Part shown: positions 17,068-39,707 of the stretch, in pieces
How positions within the stretch are numbered: the stretch's first letter is position 1
Layout of the letters: the number at the start of each line of letters is the position of its first letter
Assembly: GCF_003149145.1 (NCBI RefSeq)
Contig: NZ_QGDQ01000018.1
Location: forward strand, 1 to 64,000
Length of the DNA: 64,000 nucleotides
From: Quadrisphaera granulorum
GTDB lineage: Bacteria > Actinomycetota > Actinomycetes > Actinomycetales > Quadrisphaeraceae
Reading direction: 5' to 3'
The notes under the pieces: model-generated
Told to the model about the DNA's origin: nothing
Seen by the model: the letters and a program-made list of their open reading frames with translations, nothing else
Database searches by the model: none
Made by a program: the position numbers and the translations under genes

Positions 17068-17167
17068 GGCGGGCCTCGGCTTTCCACAGGGTGTTTCCAC
17101 AGGTGGGCAGGGCGGAGTGCGCCATCCACAGGTCGCGGTAGTCGCTGGCTGGGACGGCTCGGGGCGC

Positions 17168-17196: not shown

Positions 17197-17232
17197 CCGG
17201 TCATCAACTCATGTGAATGAGGTGCCTGTCTA

Positions 17233-17814: not shown

Positions 17815-18080
17815 GCTGGCTGCTGACCGCCGCCATTCCGAATCCCGCACCGGTGGCCCCACCAGGGCTCGGCGAGGCGGTCAACACCCTGCTGGGCTGG
17901 CTGAAGTGGGGTGGCCTCGTCGCCGGGGTCGCCGGCCTCCTCGTCTGCGCGATCATGATGATGATCGGACGGCGCAACCGCTCCGCCGTCGCCGCCGACG
18001 GCGCCGCGGGCATCCCCTGGGTGCTCGGCGGCCTGACCGTCATCGCCTTCTCGGCCGCCATCGTCGGGGCGGTGGTCTGA
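17811..18080 (+). CDS. Small two-helix membrane protein, VirB2/pilin-like
   Basis: An 89-residue protein with two hydrophobic helices (GGLVAGVAGLLVCAIMMMIG and IPWVLGGLTVIAFSAAIVGAVV) separated by a short basic loop, RRNRS. Size, topology and position, between a P-loop protein and a VirB8-like gene, match the pilin-like subunit in actinobacterial conjugation clusters. ATG 17811 overlaps the upstream stop. No sequence-level proof of pilin function is possible here. Confidence 0.6.
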   Translation: MSWLLTAAIPNPAPVAPPGLGEAVNTLLGWLKWGGLVAGVAGLLVCAIMMMIGRRNRSAVAADGAAGIPWVLGGLTVIAFSAAIVGAVV

Positions 18081-18081
18081 C

Positions 18082-23325: not shown

Positions 23326-23440
23326 GGGCCATGTGGAGTGACCGCGGCTACTTCGAGGCCCGGGCGCGCTGCGAGCCGCTTGCCCCGCCGTTGCGCCGGA
23401 CGGGCGACACGCCTCGCCGGCGCTGCACCCACGAGAGTAC

Positions 23441-23454
23441 TGTTGCTTGCAACA
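23441..23454. promoter_or_regulatory. Inverted repeat before the 80-residue gene
   Basis: TGTTGC-TT-GCAACA is a perfect 6-bp dyad 26 bp upstream of the next start, in the 154-bp gap after the VirB4-like gene. It could be an operator or a small hairpin in the leader. Confidence 0.4.
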
Positions 23455-23479
23455 TGCAAATACTACGGAGGGAATCGTT

Positions 23480-23722
23480 TTGCACATCCACGAACTTTTC
23501 GGCGGGCTTAATGTGGCGGAGATTCCGTCTGTCAAACTCGTTGAGGTCGTCGACGACTGTGAGCACTGCGGAGGCCCGCATCTGCGTCGCTCCGCCGTCT
23601 TCACCGACCCCGTCACCGGTTCTGTGCTGTCGCAGCTTCACGATGGGGACCTGGAGCGCCACGAGCACGACATGGCGGTCGAGGCGGCTCAGGCCGTTCG
23701 CGACACGGTCGACGCCGCGTAG
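23480..23722 (+). CDS. Small acidic protein with CxxC motif
   Basis: An 80-residue protein of unknown function. A single CEHC near residue 28 with neighbouring His residues (CEHCGGPHLRR) suggests a metal site, and the C-terminal third is helical and acidic. The start is TTG 23480, chosen because GGAGGG (23467-23472) lies at ideal distance; upstream in-frame codons would overlap the dyad at 23441. The local base composition is lower in GC than the secretion genes. It sits between the VirB4-like and VirD4-like genes, so it is an element gene, but the role is unknown. Confidence 0.6.
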   Translation: MHIHELFGGLNVAEIPSVKLVEVVDDCEHCGGPHLRRSAVFTDPVTGSVLSQLHDGDLERHEHDMAVEAAQAVRDTVDAA

Positions 23723-23932
23723 CGGACTCTTTGGGCGCGCGGGGGGCCATGCAGGTTCCCCGCCCACCCGGTGGCACTCGGCTCAGGGCCTCGGTGCCAT
23801 AACGATCATGAGCTGCGGCGCGATGGTGTCGTGCTCAACGCCAGCGCGCCCGAGCACTCTGGGCGGCAGGGCGCTGAGAGCCTCGCACTCGTCGCAGGGT
23901 CGTGGCTGGCTGTTCGGTCGCCAGCGCGGGCT

Positions 23933-25684: not shown

Positions 25685-25689
25685 GCGGT

Positions 25690-26103
25690 GTGAGCAGCGA
25701 GCGGTGGCAGGCCGAGGTCGATTCTCGTTTAGCGCGGCTGGAGCTGCAGGCAGACGAGGCTGAGCTCGCCTACGAGGGCCTCAGCGTCCGTCCGAGCGCC
25801 GCGGGAAGCGATGAGACGGACTACGCTAACCTGGACGATTGGGTCAACGGCTACTTCTGCGCCACCTTCTCCCGGCCCCTAGGCGGAGAATTTCGGTGGT
25901 GCTCTCAGTGGCGAGAGCACCGTGAGGCCGTCGTGCGACTGGAGGCCCTGTGGTGCTCGTGGAGGGCGCTCCGCCGTGACCCTGCGTTGGGCATGGCCAC
26001 GTGGTTACACCAGTTCCTCGACCCTCAAATAACCATGCTGATGGCTCCTCGAGGGACATTTGCTCACTGTTCTATCACTAAGCATGAAAGCTTTACCGCC
26101 TGA
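25690..26103 (+). CDS. DUF4913-type protein
   Basis: A small soluble protein of 137 residues from GTG 25690 (a TTG at 25681 overlaps the coupling-protein stop and is possible). The core DYANLDDWVNGYF, then GGEFRWCSQWREH, RLEALWCSWRAL, GMATWLHQFLDPQ, matches the DUF4913 family, which commonly follows the coupling-protein gene in actinobacterial integrative elements. Function is unknown. The last residues after FAHC diverge and run into lower-GC sequence that begins the ABC-3C cassette. Confidence 0.75.
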   Translation: MSSERWQAEVDSRLARLELQADEAELAYEGLSVRPSAAGSDETDYANLDDWVNGYFCATFSRPLGGEFRWCSQWREHREAVVRLEALWCSWRALRRDPALGMATWLHQFLDPQITMLMAPRGTFAHCSITKHESFTA

Positions 26104-26122
26104 AGTCTGCACATGCAGGATT

Positions 26123-26213
26123 CGGATAGTGCTACGTCCGGATAGTTTCACTTGTCCAGGGCTGGCTGCAAGGGCGGTGCATCACTGTGAGGCGTTCGGT
26201 CGCCCTGACCGAA
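26123..26213. promoter_or_regulatory. Repeats in the leader of the ABC-3C cassette
   Basis: The 264-bp gap before the cassette has lower GC than its left neighbour. CGGATAGT occurs twice in direct orientation (26123-26130, 26139-26146), and TTCGGTC-N5-GACCGAA (26195-26213) is a perfect 7-bp dyad. These are plausible operator or hairpin elements, with no further proof. Confidence 0.4.
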
Positions 26214-26367
26214 TATTGTGGATCTGCAGGGTCCGTCGATCTGTACCTTGCCGTGAGGAGAGGTCGGAGGGCAGCCCGCAGGTTGGGTGCCTGGGCGGCG
26301 ACACGTCTCTGACCAGCGCCTGACCCCGGGGGGTGTCGCGCTGCGTCCACCGGAGGCACAATGGAGC

Positions 26368-27549
26368 GTGGCCGCCAACCAGCACTCAGCAGCTGGTCAG
26401 GCGCTCGGGTACGTCTACCAGGTGGGATGGGGCCTACTTGAGCTGGCTCGGCCCGGGCCGGACGAACATTGGCTGCGCCTCGAAACTGTTGATGACGTGT
26501 CCTGGCACGACGACGCTGGCGACGCAATATCGCTCCTGCAGATCAAGCACCACCTAGGTGCTGGTAGTTCGCTGGCGGACATGCATGTCGATGTCTGGCG
26601 AACTGTACAAATCTGGCTGGACGACCCGTCCCTGTTGCAAGCAGGCGGCCCTCTCCTCTGCCTGGTGACGACGCAGTCTGTACCAGCAGACGGAGCGCTG
26701 GCGAGATTGAATCACAGTGGCAGAGATGTCGGTCGTGCACTACAGCTTTTAAATGAGGCGGCGGAGGAATCGACGAATAAGCAGACCGAGGCTACTCGGG
26801 CTGCATGGCTTGCTACCCCGTCTGGTGTCCGCGAAGCGATTACTGAGCGAGTTTATGTGATCGCCGACCAAGCTCCCGCGCAGAATCTCCGTGATGAGGT
26901 TCGCTCTCTGCTGAGCAACGCACTGCCGGTTGGGCGAGAAGATGCCTTCATCGAGGCTCTGACTGGCTGGTGGTGGCGGGTGGGTATCGACCTGCTTCGA
27001 GGTAATCGTCGAGGTATCCGTCGCATCGACCTTCGATTAAAAATCGACGACCTTCGTGACCAGTTTTCTAGCCGCAGTCTTCCCATCACCGTAGGCCGAG
27101 ATGCTCAAGAACGGTCTCTTGACGACCATCGCGATCGAGTCTTCGCCCATCAGCTCGATTGGATCGGGGCAGGTGAAGACCTCTTGGTGGCCGCTATTCG
27201 CGACTACTACCGCGCCTATGCTCAGGCGCAGGCTTGGGTTGAAGGTGCCATGGTGGAACTTTCTGAGTTGTCAGAATACGAACACCGTGTCGTTGAAGAG
27301 TGGGAGATGCAGTTCGGGTTGATGAAGGCTTCGCTCGGCGAGGACGCCTCCGAGGGTGATCTCCGTCAGGCGGGTATGCGCCTCTTCGGCAAGGCAATGA
27401 ACCAAAGCCCTGCGTTGCTCCGGCCCGGAATGACGGATGCCTTTTTCTCGCGAGGCACCCATCACCGTCTGGCCGATGAACGACGAATGGGGTGGCATCC
27501 GGAGTTTGCCCAACGACTCGAAGCCCTGCTGCAATCGCGTGCCTCGTGA
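26368..27549 (+). CDS. ABC-3C system: nuclease-domain component
   Basis: A 393-residue protein, first of a three-gene cassette. The N-terminal part has the pattern of a restriction-like (PD-(D/E)xK, Cap4/DUF4297-type) nuclease domain: GYVYQ near residue 14, E39 and D43 in RLETVDDV, and Q58-x-K60 in LLQIKHH. The C-terminal half is helical with no known catalytic motif and may be the part that contacts the other components. GTG 26368 is taken as the start; an upstream GTG at 26287 is possible. Clearly lower GC than the secretion genes. It overlaps the next gene by 4 bp. Confidence 0.75.
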   Translation: MAANQHSAAGQALGYVYQVGWGLLELARPGPDEHWLRLETVDDVSWHDDAGDAISLLQIKHHLGAGSSLADMHVDVWRTVQIWLDDPSLLQAGGPLLCLVTTQSVPADGALARLNHSGRDVGRALQLLNEAAEESTNKQTEATRAAWLATPSGVREAITERVYVIADQAPAQNLRDEVRSLLSNALPVGREDAFIEALTGWWWRVGIDLLRGNRRGIRRIDLRLKIDDLRDQFSSRSLPITVGRDAQERSLDDHRDRVFAHQLDWIGAGEDLLVAAIRDYYRAYAQAQAWVEGAMVELSELSEYEHRVVEEWEMQFGLMKASLGEDASEGDLRQAGMRLFGKAMNQSPALLRPGMTDAFFSRGTHHRLADERRMGWHPEFAQRLEALLQSRAS

Positions 27550-28019
27550 TTCATTGGAATGATCAGCCCGCTGCCGTCAGAGCAACCCTGAACCCGTTGC
27601 TGATCGCGGCAGTCGTGGCCTGGTCCAGTCGTGCATATGCAAAGGCTGGGGGGCATGAGGGCATGCCTTGGCCACTAGCCTTCGTGGCGCCTGCCCTGAT
27701 CTTGCATCCGCCGAGCCGTCAAGCACTCCCCGGATCCACCAAAAAGCGACTGATTGCATGGCGTGACGAGAACGATTCCCTGGTTGAGGGGCTTCCGGAG
27801 CGCTGCCGCAATCTTCGGCCCTTCACCCAGGCGGGCCTCCGGGCTGGTCTGCGACACGGCTTCATCAGCGTCCAGGGTCCAGACGTCGTCGGGCGCCTGT
27901 CGCCGGGCAGGACCCCAGACGAGCTCCGAGAGGTGGCCCGGGCATCGGCCCTCCTGGGGCGCTGGCTGGCACCTCTGCCGGCATCCACCGTCCTCGGGAC
28001 GCTGGGGATGACAACCTAG
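27546..28019 (+). CDS. ABC-3C system: middle component
   Basis: A 157-residue protein matching the 'three component ABC system middle component' family (DUF6521-like). It opens with HWNDQPAAVRATLNPLL, followed by GMPWPLAFVAPALILHPPSR and a later LIAWRDENDSLVEGLPERC. These small proteins always sit between a nuclease- or effector-type partner and a Rad50-like ATPase and presumably bridge them. The GTG start at 27546 overlaps the preceding stop (GTGA), and the next gene begins 4 bp after its stop. No catalytic residues are apparent. Confidence 0.75.
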   Translation: MIHWNDQPAAVRATLNPLLIAAVVAWSSRAYAKAGGHEGMPWPLAFVAPALILHPPSRQALPGSTKKRLIAWRDENDSLVEGLPERCRNLRPFTQAGLRAGLRHGFISVQGPDVVGRLSPGRTPDELREVARASALLGRWLAPLPASTVLGTLGMTT

Positions 28020-28023
28020 GTTC

Positions 28024-29973
28024 GTGCAGCTCGTATCCATCGTCGTGTGGGGCTGGAGCAGTCCCGAACCTCGCGTGATCGCCCTTCGGCCTGGACTGAA
28101 CGTGATCACGGGCGATTCAAAGACCGGCAAAAGTGCGATCTTGGACATCGTTGACTACTGCTTCGGTCGTAGAGAAGAGTCCGTGGCGGGCGAGCGCATC
28201 CGCGAAGCTGTCTCGTGGTACGGGGTCGTTCTTCGCGTAGCAGAGTCGTTCGTATTTGTGGGCAGGCCGCGGCCAAGTCGTGGCTCGGCATCAAATCACC
28301 AGGCGCTGATTCGGGAATCTACGAGCCCTGACCTTCCCGTGTATGAAGATCTCCTTCCCAACACCGACACCGAGGGGCTTCGTCGCCGCTTAGGTCTACT
28401 TCTGGGGATTGGTGAGCACCGTGCGTTCTCGCATGAGGACGCGCTGGCTGCTGGAGGTGCGGCCTCAGCCGGAAATGCCATTGTGCTCTGCCTGCAGAAG
28501 CAGGGAGAAGTCAGCAACCAGGATTACTTGTTCCATCGACAAGCCGATAGAAACGTAGCCAACTCGTTGATCGACTCTTTGCCGTACTTCCTTGGGGCCG
28601 AGCGATGGGATCAGGCTGTTTGGCAGGCGAGGGCTCGACAGGACCGGCGCGTCGTCGACGCTCAGTCAGTTAAACTTCGGAACGCTGAGAAAAGAGCCGA
28701 GGGTGCCGAGGGGGAATTGCGGGCACTTCTTGAGGAGGCTTTTGCCGTTGGCTTATTACCGTCTACTAATTATGAGTCGAGAGAGCAAGCCGTTGCACTC
28801 CTGAAGGCGGCCGCGACACGTGGTGACGGCGGGACCGTCTCTCGCGACGGCGCGGCTCATGCGCGGCGACTTGACCTACAGGAGCGAGCGGCCATTAATC
28901 GCCGTCAGTTGCGTCACCTCATCGATCAGCGGTCGGCCTTACAGAACTTCGGCGACGATGAGGATCTCTATGGCGAGGCCCTGGCTCGTCAGAGAATCGC
29001 GCTGAGGTCGCTTGAGTTGTCCTCTGATGGGGGTGATTCGGTTACCTCATGCCCCCTCTGCAGTCAGGGCCTTGAAGTATCGGACCCTCGTATCGACGAG
29101 ATGCAATCCTTTGCCGATCAGATTGGTGCTGATTTGAGTGGTCTTGTAGGAAACCGTCCGAGGCGAGCTGAGGCACTGAGCGCCCTCGGCGACCAGATTA
29201 GCGCCTTGCAAGAAGAGTTAAGCGCCATTGATGTAACTGTGGCAGCCTTACAGGCCGCCGACTCTCCTAGACTTTTCGGACAGAGTCGGGCCGAAGAGAT
29301 CGCCTTCCATCGGGGGCGCATTGACGCCGCCCTAGGAGGGATCTCGCAGAGTGGCGAGGAGGCGCTGGACCGTGCGCGAGCGGCTCTCCGTGATGCTGAG
29401 CGAGCACTTGAAGTAAGTAAGGAGCGTGCCGGAGAGTCGGAGACGGACGTAGAGGCCCGACTGGTCGCAATCTCTCAGTATTTGACGGAACTTGCTGGCC
29501 GGCTGGACGTGGAACATTCCGATCGGCCAATCACGCTGGACATCAAAAAACTGACAACTATCGTGAGCACAGATTCCGGCCGGCTTCGCCTGAATCAGGT
29601 GGGTAGCGCATCAAACTACTTGGGATTGCACTTGGCTGCGCACTTGGCGCTCCATCGATTCTTCATTGAGGAGAGTCGACCGGTCCCTCGCTTTCTAATG
29701 CTCGATCAGCCCAGCCAGCCCTTTTATCCGCAGGATGATACTCAGGGTGCCGACGGTGAACTGCCCGCGGGGGACAGTGACCGTCGAGCCGTGCGTGATA
29801 TGTACCGACTCCTCTTCGATTTCGCACAGGAGCGGGGGCAGGCTTTCCAGGTGATTGTCAGTGACCATGTGAACCTGCGAGACGAGCAGTGGTTCCAGGA
29901 GTCGATCGTGGAGGAGTGGCGCGACGGCAATGCCTTGATTCCTGCCGAATGGCGTAAGCAGGGTGAAGCATGA
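28024..29973 (+). CDS. ABC-3C system: Rad50/SMC-like ATPase (DUF3732)
   Basis: A 649-residue SMC-type ABC ATPase. Walker A is GDSKTGKS (residues 30-37). Long helical arms flank a central CPLC (Cys343/Cys346) at the zinc-hook position. The ABC signature region is NQVGSASNYLGLHLA (~524-538) and the Walker B is FLMLDQPSQPFYP (Asp561). A Gln stands where SMC proteins have the catalytic Glu, which I recall as normal for DUF3732. Local GC drops to about half in places. It likely loads on or senses nucleic acid and triggers the nuclease partner, as proposed for ABC-3C conflict systems. Confidence 0.85.
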   Translation: MQLVSIVVWGWSSPEPRVIALRPGLNVITGDSKTGKSAILDIVDYCFGRREESVAGERIREAVSWYGVVLRVAESFVFVGRPRPSRGSASNHQALIRESTSPDLPVYEDLLPNTDTEGLRRRLGLLLGIGEHRAFSHEDALAAGGAASAGNAIVLCLQKQGEVSNQDYLFHRQADRNVANSLIDSLPYFLGAERWDQAVWQARARQDRRVVDAQSVKLRNAEKRAEGAEGELRALLEEAFAVGLLPSTNYESREQAVALLKAAATRGDGGTVSRDGAAHARRLDLQERAAINRRQLRHLIDQRSALQNFGDDEDLYGEALARQRIALRSLELSSDGGDSVTSCPLCSQGLEVSDPRIDEMQSFADQIGADLSGLVGNRPRRAEALSALGDQISALQEELSAIDVTVAALQAADSPRLFGQSRAEEIAFHRGRIDAALGGISQSGEEALDRARAALRDAERALEVSKERAGESETDVEARLVAISQYLTELAGRLDVEHSDRPITLDIKKLTTIVSTDSGRLRLNQVGSASNYLGLHLAAHLALHRFFIEESRPVPRFLMLDQPSQPFYPQDDTQGADGELPAGDSDRRAVRDMYRLLFDFAQERGQAFQVIVSDHVNLRDEQWFQESIVEEWRDGNALIPAEWRKQGEA

Positions 29974-30041
29974 TGGATTCATCTACCCGCCATGGTCGCG
30001 CTCTGTCGAAGTCATGAGTGCTGCAACTAGCGAATGTGGCC

Positions 30042-31034
30042 TCAGAGCTTTCTGACGGTGTCAATCGCCATCGCCAAGGCGGCGCCGTGAAAGTCGCCGT
30101 CCTCAAGTTGGTGCAGGACTATGGCAGTGCTTCTCAAGGTGCGAGCGACCGGACTGCCTAGAGTGCAGCGATTGCGCATGTCGGAGCTCGCGCCTGCCGT
30201 GTTTGCAGACCATAGATGCTGCAGTCGCGGGAGGGTTAGTTGTGGCGCTAGCTTTCCACCTCCAAACCATGGCCCAGGGCAGTCGCCAGTTGGATCTATC
30301 AAGGCCACTGAGTAGCCCGTCACTTCGCCGAAGTTGATGGTGCTGTGGCGCAGTCGAACCTGCACTTGTGCGACCTCCAGATGTCGGATGAAGCCTTGGA
30401 GGCTTCGGCTCGAAAGGGCTGCGCGTCGCACTTCGCGTCGCAGAAGTTGCCGTGTCGTCTCCGGTAGGCCCTGTCGTGCCGCTTTCTCTATCTCCGCCCG
30501 TGTCGGCCGCTTCGGCGCCGTCCGGTCTCGGGCCGGTGTCACCTTCAGCCCGTACCGCAGCTCCACGGTGCGGCACGCGGCGCCGAGCTTGGCGTAGTCA
30601 TGCGAGGTCCGCGCTCGACGTCCGTCTTGTCGCGCGAGCGTGACCGCGAGGTGGATGTGGTCGTCGGCGTGCCGGACGGCGATCCAGCGGCACCCGGCGG
30701 TGTCACCACGAGGGGCGAGGCCGGTCTGGTGCAGCACCTCGGCGGCCACGTCAGCCCACTCCGCGTCTGTCAGTTGCCGATCTCCCGGGGCCGTACGCAG
30801 CGGGCAGTGCCACACCGCGGGCGAGGGTCGGCTGTCGAGCGCAGCCAGCGGCTGCTCCAGGAGGGCCGTGAGGCGCTTGAGCCGTGGGTCGCTCCTGGGT
30901 GTGTGGTCGGCAACGACGTCGTCGTCCCATGCCGCGACGACATGAGGGTTGGTGTGCTCGTTGGCCCGGCCGGGACCGAACAGGTAGCGCAGCAGCCCGC
31001 CGATGTCGTTGCCGCGGACGACCTTGCCAATCAA
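30042..31034 (-). CDS. Relaxase (MobA/MOB-P-like), short C-terminus
   Basis: A 330-residue relaxase. The N-terminus IGKVVRGNDIGGLLRYLFG and the metal-binding segment AVRHADDHIHLAVTLARQDG (HxH) identify a mobilisation nuclease that nicks oriT and pilots the strand. The TTG start at 31034 follows GGGAGGAGG and overlaps the mobC stop. After WFGGGKLAPQLTLPRLQHLW (near 30200) the remaining ~60 residues look unlike the long helical tail usual in these relaxases. The C-terminus therefore seems truncated where the ABC-3C cassette meets it. The catalytic part is intact. Confidence 0.8.
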   Translation of the reverse strand: MIGKVVRGNDIGGLLRYLFGPGRANEHTNPHVVAAWDDDVVADHTPRSDPRLKRLTALLEQPLAALDSRPSPAVWHCPLRTAPGDRQLTDAEWADVAAEVLHQTGLAPRGDTAGCRWIAVRHADDHIHLAVTLARQDGRRARTSHDYAKLGAACRTVELRYGLKVTPARDRTAPKRPTRAEIEKAARQGLPETTRQLLRREVRRAALSSRSLQGFIRHLEVAQVQVRLRHSTINFGEVTGYSVALIDPTGDCPGPWFGGGKLAPQLTLPRLQHLWSANTAGASSDMRNRCTLGSPVARTLRSTAIVLHQLEDGDFHGAALAMAIDTVRKL

Positions 31035-31486
31035 GCCTCCTCCCGCGCGGTCAACGTCAGCGGGGGCGCCGTCGCGGAGCGCTGGGAGCGTCGCGCGGCC
31101 TGGACCAGCTCGGCGGCTGCGTCGTCGAGGCGCTCCACAGCGCGGTTGGTGATGGCGACCGCGGCGGCCAGCCACTCCGGCGCCTCTCCCGTGGCGTTCA
31201 GCGCCCTGACGGCCTGGTTAACGTTCACCGCGAACCGGCGCACCTGCGTACGGGCGGCCATGAGCTCCACCAGTGCTTCACGGACCGGGGTCAGCGACGG
31301 CGCCCGCACGCCGCGGGCAGCGGCCAGCGCTGCCTCGGCGGCGTACCCCGACGGCGTCAGTCCCGCCGATCGAGCGGCCTCGGCCAGCAGCGCGTACTCC
31401 TCGGCTGTGGCGCGGAACTTGACCTGCCGATCACGAGCACGGGCGTACCGACGCACCCGGCCGGGACGCTGCACGACGGCGCTCAC
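31031..31486 (-). CDS. mobC: MobC-like relaxosome protein
   Basis: A 151-residue accessory protein. A ribbon-helix-helix-like start (RQVKFRATAEEYALLAEAARSAG, split here as QVKFRATAEEYALLAEAAR) is followed by helical segments with VRRFAVNVNQAVRALNATGE, the usual MobC ending in which Asn and Gln are conserved. It binds oriT and helps the relaxase nick. GTG 31486 is preferred; longer frames would run through the oriT sequence upstream. It is immediately upstream of, and overlapping, the relaxase gene. Confidence 0.75.
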   Translation of the reverse strand: MSAVVQRPGRVRRYARARDRQVKFRATAEEYALLAEAARSAGLTPSGYAAEAALAAARGVRAPSLTPVREALVELMAARTQVRRFAVNVNQAVRALNATGEAPEWLAAAVAITNRAVERLDDAAAELVQAARRSQRSATAPPLTLTAREEA

Positions 31487-31601
31487 TGCGCCCACCTGCC
31501 CTGCCCGGGGCCGGCCCACGACGACGACCGCGCCCGGTCGACGACGCCCCCGCTGGGGCCCGCGATGCGCAGCGAGCGGAAGCCGGCGCGGCAGCGACGG
31601 C

Positions 31602-31629
31602 GCATCTGGGTACCAGATGCATATCTTGC
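31602..31629 (-). other. Origin of transfer (oriT), MOB-P-like nic site
   Basis: A perfect inverted repeat GCATCTGG-GTA-CCAGATGC (31602-31620) is followed 8 bases later by the predicted nick between G31628 and C31629 in TATCTTG/C, an exact match to the MOB-P consensus YATCYTG/Y. In RP4 the nick also lies 8 bases from the end of the inverted repeat. The site is ~115 bp upstream of mobC. Strand assignment follows the mob operon; the nicked strand as written is the plus strand. Confidence 0.75.
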
Positions 31630-31703
31630 TCCCGCCCTTCCGACCCCAGAAGGAGCCGCTGCCCACGGCCGGCCGGGCAAGACCATGAACGCCGCGAGGG
31701 CGC

Positions 31704-32777
31704 TCACGAGGCTTCCCGCCGGTCGAGGATCTCGCAGGCCCGGCGCAGCACCGTGGTGCGGGTCAGCGGCATGTTTTCCCGCGTCAGCTCGGCGCGGGCC
31801 TGCTGCTGCAGGGCCATCCGACCACCGTCGAGCGCCTGCAGCCGAGCCTCGAGGGCGTCGACGTCCTCGGCGCTGAGGCCCGAGGCGTGCTCGGGCTTGG
31901 AGGCTTCGTCCCACCACGGTCCCGCTTCGGCCAGGCGCATCGGGGAGCGGGTCGCGGGGTCGGCCGCGACCTTCAACAGCGCTGTGGCGGCGAAGCGCGC
32001 CGGCCACAGCCGCCGTCGCACGGCGAGCTCCAGGGCTGCGAGCAGGTGCGGTGCCTGCCAGCACGCGGTGCCGAGGCCGTTGGCGGTACGGGACGCGGCG
32101 CACATCTCGACGATCACCTCCAGTCCGCCCTGGGGATCGATGTTGAGGCTGCGGAGGAACTCCACCTCCTCCTCCCGCGCAGCGCGCTGGGAGGCGCTAG
32201 GTGCGGGGGATGGAGGGGGAGGAGGAGAACTTCTCTGGGTAAAGATCTCTGGGTCGGGCCGCACATCTGCGGCCACCCCCGCCGCAGATCCGCGGCCAGT
32301 AGCCGCAGAAGTGCGGCCACCCCCGGTGGCGACCGGCGGAGTGTCCTGCGGTGGAGCGGCCCTACAGCTGGGTGCGCGAGGAGGGGTGGCCGCAGAAGTG
32401 CGGCCACCCCCGTCGCCGTCTGGTCCGCCCGCGGTGGCCGGGGGAGCGGTGCGCAGGTAGTAGCGATTGGAGAGGTTGACCCCGCCGCGGCGTCGTCGCT
32501 CGATGACGACGAGGCCCTTCTCCTCGAGGTTGCGCAGCGCGCGGTCGACTGCGTCGGTGGAGCGGTGCAGGCGCTCGGCCAGGGTGGCGCGCGAGGGCAT
32601 GCGGACGCCGCTGCCGTTGCCGTAGCGCAGCAGTAGGGCGTAGAGGCGGAAGGCCGGGTCGCTGATGTCGGCCTCGATGACCCACTCAGGGACGATCGAG
32701 AAGAGCTGGTCCTCGACGACGAGGGCGTCGACGGCGGGCTGGTTCGGTGGGGTTGGTTCGGTCGACCGGTCGGTCAT
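31704..32777 (-). CDS. HTH protein, probable replication initiator of the element
   Basis: A 357-residue protein. Residues ~25-110 form a winged HTH (FRLYALLLRYGNGSG, then MPSRATLAERLHRSTDAVDRA, then a wing VVIERRRRGGVNLSNRYYLR), as in plasmid Rep or primosomal-type proteins. Residues ~115-200 are a Gly/Pro-rich linker encoded by repeated DNA. The C-terminal ~150 residues are helical. It is placed upstream of oriT/mobC at the element edge. ATG 32777 follows AGGAG. Rep is the best guess because of the DNA repeats inside the gene; a transcription regulator is the alternative. Confidence 0.65.
   Translation of the reverse strand: MTDRSTEPTPPNQPAVDALVVEDQLFSIVPEWVIEADISDPAFRLYALLLRYGNGSGVRMPSRATLAERLHRSTDAVDRALRNLEEKGLVVIERRRRGGVNLSNRYYLRTAPPATAGGPDGDGGGRTSAATPPRAPSCRAAPPQDTPPVATGGGRTSAATGRGSAAGVAADVRPDPEIFTQRSSPPPPPSPAPSASQRAAREEEVEFLRSLNIDPQGGLEVIVEMCAASRTANGLGTACWQAPHLLAALELAVRRRLWPARFAATALLKVAADPATRSPMRLAEAGPWWDEASKPEHASGLSAEDVDALEARLQALDGGRMALQQQARAELTRENMPLTRTTVLRRACEILDRREAS
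32259..32412. repeat. Four iteron-like inverted repeats inside the Rep-like gene
   Basis: CCGCA-N4-TGCGG (one copy CGCGG) occurs at 32259-32272, 32282-32295, 32303-32316 and 32390-32403. Three copies (first, third and fourth) are extended on the right by CCACCCCC. Spacings are 23, 21 and 87 bp, close to whole helical turns. The first copy is in a different reading frame from the other three, yet the DNA is the same, which points to selection on the DNA, for example binding of the encoded protein at an origin. Confidence 0.65.
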
Positions 32778-32959
32778 GAGGGCTCCTGGCGCGGTGGGAT
32801 CGGGACAGGCGTCATCGCCACCACCGACCGCGGGGGAGGGGCTCGTGCGCTCACACCGCGCCAACATCAGCCGCGGACGTGCGCGCACGAGCCGTCACCA
32901 GGTGGACCAGGCGGACGGTGGCGCGGGACGAAACCGCTGCTCAGGGACGTGCGCTGTCT

Positions 32960-32977
32960 GGCCGGACGTGGCCGGAC
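32960..32977. repeat. Paired GGCCGGAC direct repeat beside the attachment site
   Basis: GGCCGGAC occurs at 32960-32967 and 32970-32977, 13 bp before the tRNA fragment. Short direct repeats flanking an att core often bind integrase arms or excisionase. This is only positional evidence. Confidence 0.35.
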
Positions 32978-32990
32978 ACCTGGCGTCATC

Positions 32991-33034
32991 CCTACGGATC
33001 AGAAGGTTGCAGGTTCGAGTCCTGCCGGGCGCGC
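32991..33034 (+). other. Attachment site: 3' fragment of tRNA-Arg(ACG)
   Basis: The stretch reads as the 3' half of a tRNA-Arg with anticodon ACG: CT-ACG-GA then TCAGA, variable AGGTT, T-arm GCAGG-TTCGAGT-CCTGC, and acceptor CGGGCGCG. The 5' half is absent; upstream sequence does not form D- or acceptor arms. Such a fragment, followed by a terminator, is the far end of an element integrated in the tRNA gene. The intact tRNA should lie at the other end, outside the window. Sequence 32778-32990 upstream holds no gene. Confidence 0.75.
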
Positions 33035-33057
33035 TCGTTGAGACAGCGACGTCGAAG

Positions 33058-33086
33058 GCCCCCGCTCTCCACAGCGGGGGCTTTTT
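33058..33086 (+). terminator. Strong intrinsic terminator, probably of the tRNA-Arg gene
   Basis: GCCCCCGCT (33058-33066), six-base loop, AGCGGGGGC (33073-33081) and TTTTT. It is a perfect 9-bp stem with a T-tract, placed 24 bp after the tRNA fragment. It is probably the original chromosomal tRNA terminator. From here to 33310 no gene is visible. Confidence 0.85.
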
Positions 33087-33310
33087 GCGTTGTGCGGGTG
33101 CCCGCAGCGCGGTGGCGCGAGGGTAGTGATCGCTGGGCCGACACGCCGACCGGCCGCTTCAGCAGCGTCACGTCTGCTTCATGGGGGGCCGTCAGGCTGC
33201 GTCAGCACCGTGCCCCGACTGGATGGCGAGGTGCTCGACCCGCCCCGGCGATCCGCGTGAGCCTCCGGCTCTGCGCGCGGGGTCGTCAGCCCGCCTTCCG
33301 AGGAGCTCCT

Positions 33311-33808
33311 GTGCTCGACACCATCAACGGCCTGCCAGTCCACCCGCTGGTCGTGCACGCCGTCGTCGTCCTGTTGCCGCTGGCGGTCCTGGGGACCCTT
33401 GCCGTGGCGGCGGTCCCGCGGTGGCGCGCCCGCTACGCCGGGCTGAACGCGCTGGTCGCCGTCGTCGGCGCTGTGCTGTGCCCGGTGGCCACCAGAAGCG
33501 GCGAAGCCCTCGAACGCCGCGTCGGTGACCCGGGAGTCCACGCCGAGCTGGGTGACCAGCTGCTGTGGTTCGCGGCGCCGCTGGCCCTGCTCGCCGTGGC
33601 CCTGTGGTGGCTGCAGCGTCGACAGAGTCAGGTCGCTGGCTCGCGGCGCCCTCGGGCGATGATCGCCGCGATGGTCCTCGCCGTCGTCGCAGCACTGGCG
33701 ACCGGCGTGCAGGTGTACCGCGTCGGCGACTCCGGCGCCAAGGCCGTCTGGCAGGACCAGATGACCTCCTCGGCGCCTGCATCCGGCGACCAGGGCAACA
33801 GCGACTGA
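33311..33808 (+). CDS. DUF2231 membrane protein
   Basis: A 165-residue protein with four hydrophobic helices. The family signature NGLPVHPLVVHAVVVLLPLA is at the N-terminus, with the conserved His residues, and a closing segment VQVYRVGDSGAKAVW. AGGAG (33301-33305) precedes GTG 33311. DUF2231 proteins are putative membrane-bound, possibly haem- or metal-related. Function is unknown. It is the first chromosomal gene after the attachment site. Confidence 0.85.
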   Translation: MLDTINGLPVHPLVVHAVVVLLPLAVLGTLAVAAVPRWRARYAGLNALVAVVGAVLCPVATRSGEALERRVGDPGVHAELGDQLLWFAAPLALLAVALWWLQRRQSQVAGSRRPRAMIAAMVLAVVAALATGVQVYRVGDSGAKAVWQDQMTSSAPASGDQGNSD

Positions 33809-33942
33809 CTCACGCCGTAAGGCCCCTCCGCATCACGTTGCGGGGCCACTGCGTCACCGGAGACGTCACCCGAACGGGCGATCAAGCGCCCTCTCCCTCG
33901 TGCCGATGCTCATCCGGGACTTTCAGGGGAGGTGGAGAGGGC

Positions 33943-34287
33943 ATGACCGTCATTTCGGGCGCGACACCTGGTGCGGGATCTCGTCCTGCCGGGGGCGTGC
34001 AGTCGTGGGAGAGGGCTGTCCGCGACGCTGGCAAGGCGTACGACAGGGCTTCCGAGCGCCTGCGCAACTCCGCCACCCCGACTGGGTCGGACGGCGCCAC
34101 TAGCCGCGACAGCGCCGCTGCCGTGCAGCTCGCCGCCGCCCGGCTCGCGTCCGCCCAGGCGTCACTGGCCCAGGCGAGGGCGGCCGCGGCAGAGCGGCAG
34201 GCCCAGCGTCAGGACGACGCCGCACGCCCCGCCGTCGCCGAGCCCGCCCAGGCCACGCCCCAGGGGCGGCTGGACACCTACCTCTGA
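33943..34287 (+). CDS. Hypothetical Ala-rich helical protein
   Basis: A 114-residue protein. The N-terminal ~20 residues are Gly/Pro-rich; the rest is a likely coiled coil rich in Ala, Arg, Gln (AARLASAQASLAQARAAAAE). GGAGAGGGC sits before ATG 33943. No family is recognised, and there is no signal peptide or membrane helix. It is transcribed alone, convergent with the next gene. Confidence 0.55.
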   Translation: MTVISGATPGAGSRPAGGVQSWERAVRDAGKAYDRASERLRNSATPTGSDGATSRDSAAAVQLAAARLASAQASLAQARAAAAERQAQRQDDAARPAVAEPAQATPQGRLDTYL

Positions 34288-34299
34288 CGAGGGGGCGCG

Positions 34300-34926
34300 T
34301 CAGCCCTCGGCGTCGACCAGCGCCGCCGTCGAGGGCTGGGCGCGCAGCGCGTCGCGGCGGGCCGCCACCGTGCTCTGCTCCCACTCGGGGGAGCCGTCCA
34401 CGAGGCGGTACCCGTCGTGGACGAGACCGTGGGCATCGACCCATCTGACGACGGCGACGGCGCCGTCCACGGGCGCCTCGTGAACGAAGAACGCGCCGTC
34501 GACGAAGGGGTCCGGCGTCGCGAAGAGCTCGGTGCTCACCGGTAGGCGGTGGCGCAGCCTCACCGCTTCCACGGCGGCGGCGTAGCGCGCGCGTGCCCGG
34601 CGGATCACGGGAATCGGCCCCGCTTCTGGCTCTGTGCTCGTGGCAAGCACCTCGCCCGCCATCCCCACCCAGTAGCGGGGGTGTGTGTGGTCATCGCGCA
34701 CGTCGATGAAGTTGGCGCCCGGGGCCTTGCTATCCGGGTGCGGCTCCAGCGGGGCGTCAGCGGGTACGTCGGGGAGTGCGTGCACTCTCCGAACCGCTTC
34801 GGCGGCCATGCGTACCGAGAGCTCGCGCGGCTCCCGGGTGGCGGTAGGGACGCCGAGGCTGGCCGCGGCGTCGAGCGACCTCTCCGTCGAGTGGCTCACG
34901 AACATCACGGTAGGTGGCTGAGTCAT
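34300..34926 (-). CDS. Hypothetical protein
   Basis: A 208-residue soluble protein that I cannot place in a family. Segments of note are VMFVSHSTERSLDAAASLG at the start, FIDVRDDHTHPRYWVGMAGE in the middle and VRWVDAHGLVHDGYRLVDG near the end. No membrane helix is seen. ATG 34926 is chosen; a longer frame reaches 34953. It is divergent from furA and convergent with the 114-residue gene. Confidence 0.55.
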   Translation of the reverse strand: MTQPPTVMFVSHSTERSLDAAASLGVPTATREPRELSVRMAAEAVRRVHALPDVPADAPLEPHPDSKAPGANFIDVRDDHTHPRYWVGMAGEVLATSTEPEAGPIPVIRRARARYAAAVEAVRLRHRLPVSTELFATPDPFVDGAFFVHEAPVDGAVAVVRWVDAHGLVHDGYRLVDGSPEWEQSTVAARRDALRAQPSTAALVDAEG

Positions 34927-35077
34927 CACGCGAAAGGGGAAGAGTGTCCCCAAGTGGGGGCTTTGCGGCGTGGCGGAACATCTTGTTGCCGCCGACCCTC
35001 TGAGGGCGGCCCGGCGGCGACTCGTCGGCTCGTCGGCTCGTCGAGGGTGGGGATCTTCCCTCGGATGTCTCCCTCAG

Positions 35078-35096
35078 TTCTTGACTCGTTCAAGAA
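35078..35096. promoter_or_regulatory. FurA operator at the furA-katG promoter
   Basis: TTCTTGA-N5-TCAAGAA is a perfect 7-bp dyad ending two bases before the furA GTG (35099). FurA proteins of mycobacteria and streptomycetes repress furA-katG from just such a palindrome at the promoter, and furA mRNA there is leaderless. Both points fit this layout. Confidence 0.75.
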
Positions 35097-35098
35097 GT

Positions 35099-35641
35099 GT
35101 GACCAGGATCGACGACGTGCCGTCCCGAGAAGCCCGCGAGCGCGTGCTGGGTGAAGTCACCCTGCGCGACGCTGGGCTCCGCGTGACGCGGCCTCGGCTC
35201 GCGGTGCTCGACGCCGTCCACGGGCACCCGCACTCGACCACCGACGCGCTCATCGATGCAGCTCGTACCCACCTGCCGACGCTCTCGCACCAGGCCGTCT
35301 ACGACGCGCTGCGCGTGCTCACCGACGCCGGTGTCGTCCGCCGCATCCAGCCTCGTGGCTCGGTGGCCCGGTACGAGGCCCGCGTCGACGACAACCACCA
35401 CCACCTCGTGTGCCGCGCGTGCGGCTCCATCACCGACGTCGACTGCGTGCTCGGTGAGGCGCCGTGCCTGGTGCCCGAGCACTCGGCCGCGGAGGGCTTC
35501 GCCGTCGACGAGGCCGAGATCACCTTCTGGGGTCTGTGCCCGGCGTGCGCCGCCGGCACCACCGCCGCGGGCGGCCCCGACACCCCCACGACTTCCAGGC
35601 CAGAACAAGGTTCCGCCACCAGAGAGGTACACCGTGACTGA
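35099..35641 (+). CDS. furA: FurA-type peroxide/iron-sensing repressor
   Basis: A 180-residue Fur-family regulator. The winged HTH region is visible ([14 protein letters not shown] and [16 protein letters not shown]). The metal-binding segment is [13 protein letters not shown], and a second CxxC is in [11 protein letters not shown] 35099 directly after the operator is favoured; GTG 35117 is an alternative. It overlaps katG by 8 bp. By family knowledge it represses itself and katG and is relieved by peroxide. The C-terminal ~25 residues are Pro/Thr-rich and extend past the usual Fur end. Confidence 0.85.
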
Positions 35642-37859
35642 CATCGCGCAGGAGAAGGCGAACACCGCCAGCACCAGCGAGAGCGAGAACCCGGCCATCA
35701 AGCCGCCGACCCCGGTCACCGACCACCCCCGCCGCGTGCAGGACTGGTGGCCGAACCAGGTCGACCTGTCGGTGCTCAACCGGACCGCCCGCGAGGCCGA
35801 CCCGCTGGGTGAGGACTTCGACTACGCCGCCGAGTTCGCGAAGCTGGACGTCGCCGAGGTCAAGCGTGACCTCGCTGAGCTCATGAAGACTTCCCAGGAC
35901 TGGTGGCCGGCGGACTGGGGCCACTACGGCCCGCTGTTCATCCGCATGTCCTGGCACGCGGCCGGCACCTACCGCATCGCCGACGGGCGCGGCGGAGGCG
36001 GCCAGGGCGCTCAGCGCTTCGCCCCCCTCAACAGCTGGCCCGACAACGCCAACCTCGACAAGGCCCGCCGCCTGCTGCTGCCGATCAAGCAGAAGTACGG
36101 CCGCAAGCTCTCCTGGGCCGACCTGCTCGTGCTCGCCGGCAACGTCGCCCACGACGACATGGGCCTGCCGACCTTCGGCTTCGCCTTCGGCCGCCGTGAC
36201 GTGTGGCAGCCCGAGGAGGTCTTCTGGGGTCCGGAGGACGAGTTCCTCACCAACGACCGCTACAGCGGCCCGAACGCCCCGCTCGACCTGGAGCAGGGCG
36301 CCCTCGCCGCCGTCACCATGGGCCTGATCTACGTCAACCCTGAGGGCCCGCAGGGCAACCCCGACCCGCTGGCTTCCGCCCACGACATCCGCGTGACGTT
36401 CGGCCGCATGGGCATGAACGACGTCGAGACCGTCGCCCTCATCGCCGGTGGCCACACCTTCGGCAAGGTGCACGGCGCCGGTGACGCCGCCCTGGTCGGC
36501 AAGGAGCCCGAGGGCTGCCCCGTGCACGGCAACGGCCTGGGCTGGAAGAACCAGTTCGGCACCGGCAAGGGCGCCGACACCATCACCAGCGGTCTCGAGG
36601 GCGCCTGGACCCCGACGCCCACGAAGTGGGACAACAGCTACATCGAGACGATGTTCAGCTACGAGTGGGAGCTCACCGAGAGCCCCGCCGGTGCCAAGCA
36701 GTGGAAGCCGAAGGACGGCGCCGCGGCCGACCTCGTGCCCGACGCGCACATCCCCGGCAAGCGGAACAACCCGATCATGCTCACGAGCGACCTCGCGCTC
36801 CTGGCCGACCCGGCCTACCACGAGATCATGGTCAAGTTCCGCGACGACCACGCCTACTTCGCCGACCAGTACGCCCGTGCCTGGTTCAAGCTGCTCCACC
36901 GCGACATGGGCCCGCGCTCCCGCTACCTCGGCCCGGACGTCCCCGCCGAGGAGCTCATCTGGCAGGACCCGCTGCCTGCCGTCGACCACCCGCTCGTCAC
37001 CGACGCGCAGATCGCGGACCTCAAGGCCCGCCTGCTCGACTCCGGCCTGACGGTCTCCCAGTTGGTGCACACCGCGTGGTCGGCTGCGGCGTCCTACCGC
37101 GACACCGACAAGCGCGGCGGCGCCAACGGCGCCCGCATCCGCCTGGAGCCGCAGATCGGCTGGGCCGTCAACGCCGGCGTCGCCGAGGTGCTGCCGGTGC
37201 TCGAGCGCGTCAAGGGCGAGTTCGAGGCGGCCACCGGCGCGAAGGTGTCGCTGTCCGACGTCATCGTCCTCGGTGGCACCGCGGCGGTGGAGAAGGCGGC
37301 TGCCGACGCGGGTGTTCCGGTGTCCGTGGGCTTCACCCCCGGCCGTACCGACGCCAGCCAGGAGCAGACCGACGTCGAGAACTTCGCCTGGCTCGAGCCC
37401 AAGGCCGACGGCTTCCGCAGCTGGATCGACCCCCGCACCAAGGTGCACGCCGAGCACCTCCTGGTCGACAAGGCGTACCTGCTGGGTCTGACCGCCAAGG
37501 AGATGACCGTGCTCGTCGGCGGTCTGCGCGTGCTCGGCGCCAACACCGGCGGCACGCCGCACGGCGTCTTCACCGACAAGGTCGGCGTCCTCTCGCAGGA
37601 CTTCTTCACCACCCTGCTCGACCTCGGCGTGCAGTGGCGGACCTCGAAGGACGCCGAGGGCGTCTACGAGGGCGTCGGTGCGGACGGCTCCGTGGTGCGC
37701 ACCGCCACCGCCGCCGACCTCGTGTTCAACTCGAACTCGATCCTGCGGGGCATCGTGGAGGTCTACTCCTCCGACGACGCGAAGGAGCTGTTCGCGGCCG
37801 ACTTCGCGAAGGCGTGGCAGAAGGTCATGGAGCTCGACAGGTTCGACCTGCACGCCTGA
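35634..37859 (+). CDS. katG: Catalase-peroxidase KatG
   Basis: A 741-residue haem enzyme that breaks down H2O2 and has broad peroxidase activity. The distal site is in [13 protein letters not shown] (Arg, Trp, His). The Trp-Tyr-Met covalent adduct is complete: Trp there, Tyr in LIYVNPEG and Met in [11 protein letters not shown]. The proximal His lies in [10 protein letters not shown]. The C-terminal duplicated domain is full length. GTG 35634 overlaps the furA stop, and GAGAGG precedes it. It is regulated with furA by the upstream operator. Confidence 0.97.
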
Positions 37860-37874
37860 TCTCTCCGGCGGGAC

Positions 37875-37918
37875 GTGGGCCTGCACCGCAGATCAGCAGA
37901 TCAGCGGTGCAGGCCCAC
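37875..37918. terminator. Bidirectional terminator between katG and the GAF-ANTAR gene
   Basis: A perfect 15-bp stem, 37875-37889 pairing with 37904-37918, around a 14-base loop. The right arm lies inside the 3' coding end of the convergent GAF-ANTAR gene (stop at 37901-37903). Confidence 0.75.
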
Positions 37919-38557
37919 CTCCTCGAGGTCCAGCAGTCCGGCCACCGCGTCCGTGGCCACCTCGTGGATGGTCCGCCCCGCCGCGAAGGCGTACGCGCGC
38001 AGCCGCGCCAGCGCCTCGGCCTCGTCCAGGGCCAGCCGTGCCCGGAGCATCCCCACCAGCACCGGCAGGTCGTCGGTGGAGACGTCAGCCAAGAGGTCTC
38101 CCCGCGAGCCCCTGACGAGGATGATTCCGGCAAGGACGTCGGCCAGGCGCGTCAGCACGTCGACCTGCGCGCTCGTGAACGGGGCGACGGCGTCCCTCCC
38201 GACGGTGAGCACCCCCACGGGCGTGCCCACCGGTCCGGACCCCAGCAGCGGCAGCGACGCCGTGGAGCGCACGGGGAACCGCTCCGCGGTCGTGCTCAGC
38301 AGCAGCTGCCACGGCGCGCCGGTGGAGCGCAGGTCGTCGACGAGAACCGGCGCACCGCAGCGCAGAGCATCCAGGCACGGCCCCTGCACGAGCGTCTGCT
38401 GGAAGTTGCTGAACCGCTGCAGCGCGAGGTCGGAGCCGGCGAGCGGTAGTCGGCGCTCGGCATCCACGACGACGGACACCGCCACCCTGTCCCAGCCCAC
38501 CGCCGGCCGTACGGCATCGCACAGAGCCAGCTCCGGGCAACTGGCGAGGTGGGACAT
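37901..38557 (-). CDS. GAF-ANTAR signalling protein
   Basis: A 218-residue protein. It has an N-terminal GAF-like sensor (~10-140; RLPLAGSDLALQRFSNFQQT, GVLTVGRDAVAPFTSAQVD) and a C-terminal ANTAR RNA-binding helix bundle (~160-215; DLPVLVGMLRARLALDEAEA, RLRAYAFAAGRTIHEVA). ANTAR proteins prevent transcription termination by binding dual hairpins in leader RNAs. ATG 38557 is the start. It is convergent with katG. The signal sensed and target RNAs are unknown; a second gene of this type lies at 55967. Confidence 0.8.
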   Translation of the reverse strand: MSHLASCPELALCDAVRPAVGWDRVAVSVVVDAERRLPLAGSDLALQRFSNFQQTLVQGPCLDALRCGAPVLVDDLRSTGAPWQLLLSTTAERFPVRSTASLPLLGSGPVGTPVGVLTVGRDAVAPFTSAQVDVLTRLADVLAGIILVRGSRGDLLADVSTDDLPVLVGMLRARLALDEAEALARLRAYAFAAGRTIHEVATDAVAGLLDLEEVGLHR

Positions 38558-38655
38558 TCGTTCACTCTCCCACCCGTTGTCGCGGCGGCGTGGAACGCCT
38601 ACGTTGAGCACCGGTCCACGCAAGGGCCCTCGGACGACTCACCGGTGAGGGCTCC

Positions 38656-39126
38656 GTGCACCAGCTTCACGAGCACCATGCAGAGCACTCCGATGGCGCG
38701 CACCACCCGCCCCTCGCCACGCCGTTCCGTGCCCTGGTGCGGTGGTCCGCCACCGGGCCCGTCGTCGTCCTGAGCGGCGAAGTCGACCTCTGCTGCGCCG
38801 AGCAGCTGGGAGCCCTCCGCGACCTGCTGCAGCGCCACGGGCAGCGCGCCGTCGTCGACACCTCCGAGGTGGCGTTCATGGACGTCGGGGGCCTGCGGGC
38901 TCTGCTCGCGCTCGCGGGTGACGGCGGCTCCCTGCTCGTCCTGCGTCCCAGCGCGGCCGTGCTGAGGCTCCTCGACCTGCTCGCCGGCACCGCCACCGGT
39001 CTCTCGGTGGTGCGGGCCGGTCCGCGGGAGGAGGCACTGGTGCTGCGCGAGACCACGGTGGCGAGCGACGAGGGGCACGGGCCCCCGGGAACGCCCCGAG
39101 CGCCGCGCCCGCGAAGGGGACGCTGA
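38656..39126 (+). CDS. STAS-domain protein (anti-sigma antagonist-like)
   Basis: A 156-residue protein. The STAS core spans ~30-120 (GPVVVLSGEVDLCCAEQLGA; VVDTSEVAFMDVGGLRALLA). The usual phospho-acceptor Ser of the D-S-S-G motif is replaced (DVGG), so it cannot be switched by phosphorylation at that site. The His-rich start and basic Pro-rich end are extra. GTG 38656 follows a GAGGG. Antagonists of this sort normally free a sigma factor; without the Ser it may act constitutively or have another role. Confidence 0.75.
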   Translation: MHQLHEHHAEHSDGAHHPPLATPFRALVRWSATGPVVVLSGEVDLCCAEQLGALRDLLQRHGQRAVVDTSEVAFMDVGGLRALLALAGDGGSLLVLRPSAAVLRLLDLLAGTATGLSVVRAGPREEALVLRETTVASDEGHGPPGTPRAPRPRRGR

Positions 39127-39135
39127 CCGAACTCC

Positions 39136-39576
39136 TCAGCGATGCTTACGCCCGACCGCCAGGTCTTCCAACCGGCGGAGCGTCTCGGTGTTGCGGGCAC
39201 TGATGAGGGGGTCGCGCAGGGGCCGTGGTACCAGGCGACCCGGCCCCTCGACAGCGTCCTCGGTGAGTCGTACCAGCGTGCCACCGTCACGGGGGAGAAG
39301 GTCGAAGACCACCCGCGCCCCACCCAGCGGCCAGCTGCGCGCCGTGAGCACCAGGCGGTGCGGTGCGCCGACCTCCTCGCTGGTGGTGCGGCCTCGCCGC
39401 AGGAGGGGCCACGCACCGACCACCGGGTGGATGGAGGTGCCCGGTCGGGGCCACCCGGGGTCGACCCGTCGCACGTGGGCACTCCCCACCACGAAGTCGG
39501 CGTAGCGCCACCCGTCGGCCAGCTGCTCCCACACGGCCTCCGGCGATGCCGGCAGCCACCGTTCCCGCACGCTCAC
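39136..39576 (-). CDS. SRPBCC (START-like) domain protein
   Basis: A 146-residue polyketide-cyclase/START-type domain. The opening RERWLPASPEAVWEQLADGW and later HPVVGAWPLLRRGRTTSEEV, GGARVVFDLLPRDGGTLVRL and the final helix (RPLRDPLISARNTETLRRLE) are typical. It would bind a hydrophobic ligand; no catalytic residue can be named. GTG 39576 is preferred. It is convergent with the STAS gene and divergent from the GGDEF-EAL gene. Confidence 0.8.
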   Translation of the reverse strand: MSVRERWLPASPEAVWEQLADGWRYADFVVGSAHVRRVDPGWPRPGTSIHPVVGAWPLLRRGRTTSEEVGAPHRLVLTARSWPLGGARVVFDLLPRDGGTLVRLTEDAVEGPGRLVPRPLRDPLISARNTETLRRLEDLAVGRKHR

Positions 39577-39707
39577 GTCGTCGTCGCCCCCGTCGTCCTG
39601 GGCCTGGCGGACCGTGGTGGCCGTGCTGTCGACCGCTCCCGACGCTAGGACGGCCGCACCGAGGGCGCACCCCGGGACGCCGATGGGGGCTGTCGGTGGA
39701 GTGGGGG

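Follow-up and report, generated by a model that had tools for sequence, protein, structure and literature searches.

Features of the window and a second copy of the tRNA core

The window, a 64,000-nt stretch of DNA from Quadrisphaera granulorum, comprises positions 1-64000 of contig NZ_QGDQ01000018.1 (C18), and its first position is the end of that contig. At 32992-33034 it carries the 3' 43 nt of a tRNA-Arg(ACG) gene, as delimited by ARAGORN, starting just before the anticodon. A GC hairpin (arms 33055-33066 and 33073-33084) and a T run follow. This confirms the earlier note, which had described the 3' half of a tRNA-Arg(ACG) and a terminator at 32991-33086. ARAGORN called no tRNA-Arg in the 64,000-nt window; we regarded as spurious its 'tRNA-???' call at 3171-3260, which overlaps the pcaF-like ORF at its end. 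The features are as follows (G001 to G005 are relatives compared below):

1-97: contig end; terminal part of a multi-copy repeat that probably is an IS, with the same sequence as C19:1-97
98-13278: cargo, with catechol-dioxygenase-like protein, PcaF-like thiolase, PcaJ-family transferase and LysR regulators; also a fluoride riboswitch (7098-7174), two CrcB-like genes (7720-8600), and metallo-beta-lactamase/rhodanese and TauE genes
13279-18081: rest of the conserved transfer arm, genes without family match; 83-87% DNA identity in G002, G003 and G004
18082-18933, +: conserved ORF with a predicted NTF2-like fold
18933-20198, +: conserved ORF of the transfer module; mismatches mostly at codon position 3
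20195-21754, +: SCO6880-family protein (NF042935, 463 bits, cut-off 60), proposed N-terminal VirB4 half; fold matches TrwK/VirB4
21751-23325, +: VirB4-type ATPase half; NCBIfam VirB4 models below cut-off; 97% in G002, G003 and G004
23771-25684, +: T4SS coupling protein of TraG/VirD4 type (PF12696 and PF02534 above cut-off)
25681-26103, +: DUF4913 protein (PF16259, E 1.3e-27)
26287-27549, +: LmuA-like protein of Lamassu defence, low GC (PADLOC E 1.3e-48; CTD7)
27492-28019, +: possible LmuC (PADLOC E 0.0022, weak)
28024-29973, +: LmuB-like protein of Lamassu defence, low GC (PADLOC E 1.4e-105; DUF3732)
30042-31175, -: MobA/VirD2-type relaxase (PF03432, 36.3 bits, cut-off 24.6; NCBIfam MobB and TraI_MobP below cut-off)
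31031-31666, -: NikA-like mobilization protein (PF21983, 37.0 bits, cut-off 27)
31704-32888, -: replication-initiator-like protein with an HTH domain (PHROG 270, E 3.9e-16; HTH_36); 90-92% in G003 and G004
32992-33051, +: core of the proposed attR, 60 bp; 32992-33034 is the tRNA-Arg(ACG) 3' part, 33035-33051 the downstream 17 bp
33055-33084, +: probable terminator hairpin of the original tRNA gene, from its arms and the comparison with a relative
33085-34299: DNA right of attR, with a DUF2231 gene (33311-33808); order beside the tRNA not conserved in relatives
34300-39589: chromosomal flank on the right, which in relatives lacking the element lies close to the intact tRNA

Because the window starts at the end of its own contig, any other copy of the repeat is invisible from the window alone. 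Across the 86 contigs of the 4.88-Mb genome, a 41-nt pattern from the fragment occurred at two places only, with up to three mismatches allowed, and the reversed pattern at none. The second place lies within an intact tRNA-Arg(ACG) gene on contig C19 (47329-47402, minus strand, ARAGORN). Window 32992-33051 and C19:47312-47371 (minus) are identical over 60 bp, reaching 17 bp past the tRNA end. Beyond this core, similarity is lost at once upstream and more gradually downstream, and a terminator-like hairpin is present downstream of both copies. A chance repeat was excluded, as a simple per-base model gives about 1e-16 expected exact 60-bp pairs and the pattern occurs at only two places in the genome.

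C19 also carries a tyrosine integrase gene (PF00589, plus Arm and SAM-like domains), which is oriented towards the core and terminates 93 bp away from it, at 47218. The integrase gene is preceded by a gene for a 69-aa HTH_17 protein (C19:45813-46022), which we infer to be a Xis-like excisionase. Thus, an intact tRNA-Arg(ACG) sharing the core and an adjacent integrase, both predicted to lie beyond position 1, are present. The sharing of a core held as predicted; the predicted length of 44 bp was too short, since identity extends over 60 bp. The window was said to lack an integrase, in agreement with a PF00589 search of the own genome, which gave 12 matches, none of them on C18.

The integration site and homologous elements in relatives

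We compared the site in the window's own genome and in five others of the genus group. The element is absent here from three of the five relatives (G001, G002 and G005), where the tRNA-Arg(ACG) site is uninterrupted; the comparison with element-free strains proposed earlier thus gave the expected picture. Relatives carrying the element at this site are G003 (Quadrisphaera sp. INWT6) and G004. In G002, the upstream flank from C19 (47609-55283), the intact tRNA and matches to C18:34307-34916 and 35059 onward are all on one contig. The distance from the tRNA to the first C18 flank match is 1.9 kb in G002, 6.5 kb in G001 and 0.4 kb in G005, the G005 site being split over two contigs with the tRNA common to both contig ends. 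The right-flank matches run to 145849 on G002:C132, to C18 35477 in G001 and to C18 37859 in G005. Since all three relatives join the C19 flank, the tRNA and the C18 flank, C18 and C19 represent the two arms of one interrupted locus.

Compared with the intact tRNA region of G001, window 32992-33090 shows 93% identity. The DUF2231 gene was not found near the site in the relatives compared, and the first 1.2 kb to the right of attR is therefore less certain and not proven ancestral. In G001, G003 and G004, the conserved right flank is separated from the tRNA or fragment by about 5.5-6.5 kb of other DNA.

Short junctions were compared as well. A reconstructed attB gave the best fit in G001 (246 bits vs 214 for attL and 148 for attR), and its margin in G005 was trivial (176 vs 172 bits for attL). 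In G002, attL (245 bits) scored above the reconstructed attB (232), and at the right end of G004 attP (424 bits) was slightly above attR (417). As this test is not uniform, with a clean attB only in G001, the long-range order decides.

The G003 element is whole on one contig, spanning 57.9 kb from the intact tRNA to the 60-bp fragment (C5:146637-204486). Next to the tRNA its DNA is of the C19 type, and next to the fragment of the C18 type. Both element ends were also found in G004, on two contigs, together with an integrase that is 97% identical. The element end left of the fragment is 95% identical to G004 over 263 bp and 85% identical to G003 over 2.7 kb.

These matches bear on the idea that the fragment was left behind by an earlier, unrelated insertion, the C19 integrase being part of another element. 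Relics do occur at this site, as G003 holds an integrase remnant (C5:146241-146541) where the junction best fits attP. Against this stand the 60 bp, which are still identical, the left-end matches to G004 and G003, and the layout in G003, where the matching end faces a tRNA-side arm resembling C19:41968-47183. We rejected a relic unrelated to C19 on the basis of the end matches and the arm layout, and consider this explanation very improbable.

In G003 itself, the integrase remnant lies beyond the fragment, and the junction region that fits attP best is C5:146231-146696 (L055). Remnant and attP-like junction probably go back to a second element that had inserted at this tRNA, as in a tandem. 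At least five other genomes of the order (G041:C1, G058:C148, G038:C17, G024:C21 and G016:C4) combine an intact tRNA-Arg(ACG)-like match with a 3' fragment at a distance of 5-50 kb, both in the same orientation on a single contig. The tRNA-Arg(ACG) gene thus looks like a widespread integration site.

A sister ICE is whole on one contig of G002 (C57, L133-L136) beside tRNA-Arg(TCT). It is bounded by an exact 44-bp repeat (67530-67573 and 1089-1132), measures 66.5 kb and has the same backbone, with VirB4 at 97%; its integrase is 64% identical to that on C19. The G003 integrase, at the same tRNA as ours and with the same transfer backbone, is 62% identical. Integrases were compared among relatives in 13 genomes of the family, which were all there were. 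In four elements the conserved arms end at nearly the same places: the C18 arm comprises a left part from 13279-13347 to about 26028-26054 and a right part from about 30228-30342 to the fragment (to 32728 in G002), and the C19 arm extends from 41962-41968 to the tRNA. Taken together, the tRNA-Arg(ACG) fragment is almost certainly the attR of a T4SS-type ICE in an actinobacterium of the Quadrisphaera group.

Cargo and the gap between the two contigs

The 97-bp repeat at the start of C18 probably is the end of a multi-copy IS, as 95-97 bp of it occur at nine places in the assembly, all of them contig ends. Since C18 and C19 both begin with this repeat end, C18:1 is not joined to C19:1 by sequence; a search for an overlap between the two contigs found only the shared 97-bp start. 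The orientation of the two repeat ends implies two inverted copies. Given a join without sequence, the membership of 1-13278 rests on contig continuity and the empty sites. We placed this region in the element because it is continuous with the C18 transfer arm and because sister elements hold other cargo. It is very likely that C18 and C19 join through an unassembled repeat and that 1-13278 belongs to the same element, whose minimum size would then be 80.4 kb (33,051 + 47,371).

Several gene names in 98-13278 rest on NCBIfam matches below cut-off. The region (98-13300) consists of three blocks whose homologues are scattered in relatives. Block 97-4581 resembles the region beside the pca genes in G002 and G004, block 4782-8600 resembles G001:C14, and the sulfur-type block 8737-13290 is 92% identical to a stretch in G001 and G002, with a further own copy (84%) on C34. 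Accordingly, 1-13278 was rejected as a single native syntenic block beside the tRNA. The sister elements compared have nothing matching it at the equivalent position. The earlier note had named synteny of 1-13,600 with element-free relatives as an outcome that would speak against the proposed element; such synteny was looked for and not found.

Among the C19 cargo are an SBF-family transporter accompanied by LMWPc proteins, which we take to be an arsenic-type set, as well as a heavy-metal P-type ATPase and two Mrp/NADH-type antiporter subunits.

Two side observations concern the homologues of these blocks. The own genome (G000) has a second pca set, C7:117369-120950, which is about 85% identical and follows the chromosomal gene order of relatives. 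G001:C14:89696-100000 and G002:C123:29374-39678 are 99% identical over 10.3 kb, including the sulfur-type block; this identity argues for a recent transfer between these two species.

The ICE proper might be narrower, comprising only 13279-33051 and C19:41962-47312, with 1-13278 and much of C19 adjoined by IS-mediated rearrangement. C18 and C19 beginning with the same repeat end, found at nine contig ends, would fit such an event, as would the homologues of the 97-13290 blocks elsewhere in relatives and the own genome and the stop of the conserved arms at 13279 and 41962. However, 1-33051 is a single contig, and G003 and G002, each with its element whole on one contig, carry different cargo between these arms, 34 kb and 42 kb respectively. 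The G003 cargo is in part C19-like, with stretches similar to C19:4780-7005, 17247-21344 and 41241-41609. We therefore regard the narrower extent as unlikely and prefer the element that includes the cargo. The claim that everything left of 33,034 lies in one element is thus supported, with the qualification that 1-13278 is variable cargo and that C18:1 and C19:1 meet at a repeat.

Transfer genes, the variable slot and the class of element

The element has a site-specific recombinase at one end (the C19 tyrosine integrase, PF00589) and 60-bp direct repeats, with an uninterrupted target in G001, G002 and G005. A relaxase (PF03432) and a coupling protein (PF12696, PF02534) were identified above cut-offs. 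For the VirB4 ATPase, the NCBIfam match (E 2.9e-10) is far below the curated cut-off, and the N-terminal half is recognized by fold. In the four genes of 18933-25684, 72-83% of the mismatches to G003 and G004 fall on third codon positions. Profile searches, NCBIfam and PHROG included, gave no family for the ORF at 18933-20198. The predicted fold of the ORF at 18082-18933 had no Foldseek match at E <= 0.001, and it scored Z 7.7 against VirB8 (TrwJ) vs Z 8.3 against CaMKII hub domains. As TrwJ is tied with the hub domains, we do not call this protein VirB8; a VirB8-like role is possible.

Could the element be a prophage or an FtsK/TraB-type AICE instead of a T4SS-type ICE? The kind of integrase is common in phages, and the replication-initiator-like gene at the element end has phage relatives. 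Indeed, 2,347 phage records match the C19 integrase, none of them at 60% identity or more. But relaxase, NikA, TraG/VirD4 and VirB4-type genes are present, and a PHROG scan of 10 proteins matched only three (the integrase, the initiator and one with weak metalloprotease-like matches). No virion structural gene was among these 10 proteins, and no FtsK/SpoIIIE-type transfer protein was among the proteins scanned, which cover part of the ORFs of an element that is itself partly unassembled. We give hardly any weight to a prophage or AICE and retain the T4SS-type ICE.

Excision and transfer of this ICE are predicted to proceed as follows. The incoming copy would complete the tRNA at attL on C19, beside the integrase and the Xis-like gene, and the displaced original 3' part with its terminator would stay at 32992-33084 (attR). 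The integrase and Xis would excise the element as a circle, leaving a restored empty site, and transfer of a single DNA strand into a recipient would be carried out by the relaxase, NikA-like protein, coupling protein and VirB4.

VirB4 appears to be encoded by two overlapping genes, with the SCO6880-family protein as its putative N-terminal half. The ATG of the ATPase-half gene at 21751 overlaps the stop of the previous gene (ATGA), and the best NCBIfam match of the ATPase half covers positions 478-580 of an 894-position VirB4 model. The structural model of the SCO6880-family protein is of low confidence (mean pLDDT 53.8), yet the 14 chains that Foldseek matched to it at E <= 0.001 all belong to R388 TrwK/VirB4 structures. 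With VIA-align, residues 127-505 were placed on TrwK 19-373 (Z 17.6, rmsd 4.2-5.0, 288-293 aligned), the next unrelated row being ESX-3 at Z 13.2. On this low-confidence model, the protein thus would have the fold of the N-terminal VirB4 domain. The N-half matched 447 and the ATPase half 475 of 72,556 plasmid records. Among the 60 records listed for each half, 22 were common to both lists; in 21 of these both matches are on one strand, with the N-half preceding the ATPase half by less than 1 kb, and in the remaining one (NZ_CP107937) the distance is 3.1 kb. The phrase 'split VirB4' was not found in the literature searched, and a word search of the accessible text of a T4SS review (PMC12857230) gave neither 'split' nor 'two genes'.

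Between the DUF4913 and relaxase genes lies a low-GC slot, filled in the window by the Lamassu genes (26287-29973). As in Lamassu systems defined in PADLOC by LmuA, LmuB and LmuC, the strong LmuA and LmuB matches are adjacent on one strand, and a Lamassu system is predicted from sequence; in contrast to them, the LmuC match is weak and the genes occupy a variable slot of an ICE transfer arm. The same slot holds a DUF6119 gene in G003 (L055:4888-6600), a gene for a TPR/PIN protein in G002 (L078:13893-17576) and two genes in G004 (L059:2783-6221), one of them with a weak GHKL-ATPase match below cut-off. In Kineococcus sp. TRM81007 (L082:14042-21095), Avs3 is found downstream of DUF4913. The comparable slot, or the genes downstream of DUF4913, was scanned with PADLOC in seven loci, and two matched (the window and L082), the six loci other than the window giving no match besides L082. 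Since PADLOC matched only two of seven, 'defence slot' is a reading and not a count.

The kind of element is known, since T4SS-type ICEs have been published for Actinobacteria, as have tandem elements in tRNA-Arg, according to the accessible parts of two reports (PMC3218068, PMC9513070). The first lists 17 putative T4SS-type ICEs in Actinobacteria in a survey limited to MOBF (TrwC) relaxases. Like these, as far as that text describes them, our element is chromosomally integrated and has an integrase, a coupling protein, a VirB4-like protein and a relaxase; unlike them, it has a MobA/VirD2-type relaxase (PF03432) and also a replication-initiator-like gene. The second, in the parts available, describes a Streptomyces population with a chromosomal ICE in tRNA-Thr, flanked by 93-nt direct repeats, and AICE accretion in tRNA-Arg. 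Shared features, within those parts, are integration into a tRNA 3' end, several elements or relics per tRNA gene and a link between integrase sequence and site that is not strict. In contrast to that tRNA-Thr ICE, the core here is 60 bp in tRNA-Arg(ACG), and 44 bp in tRNA-Arg(TCT) for the sister.

In the Streptomyces coelicolor cluster SCO6871-6884 (cmdABCDEF), the VirB4-like ATPase is CmdB/SCO6878, according to the accessible text of PMC2782261. As described there, a SCO6880-family (CmdC-like) protein adjoins the VirB4-like ATPase, as it does in the window; in contrast to those cmd clusters, the window genes belong to an ICE with relaxase and coupling protein, and their assignment is by the NCBIfam SCO6880 model. 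No paper on Quadrisphaera together with an integrative and conjugative element or a genomic island was found in the literature searched, and the element itself did not appear in print in the searches made.

We lean towards viewing the four elements as one actinobacterial conjugation type, with a two-gene VirB4 (SCO6880/CmdC plus ATPase), integrases that vary by tRNA-Arg, and a low-GC slot that is refilled, in part with anti-phage genes. If the two-gene VirB4 is true, a function is suggested for the SCO6880 family. The tRNA fragment has led to a delimited mobile element with both ends, an integrase and sister elements. One backbone with integrases at 62% (same tRNA, G003) and 64% identity (other tRNA-Arg, G002) offers a natural test of site choice, and the element shows how genes for metal resistance, fluoride, aromatic degradation and anti-phage defence can move in Quadrisphaera.
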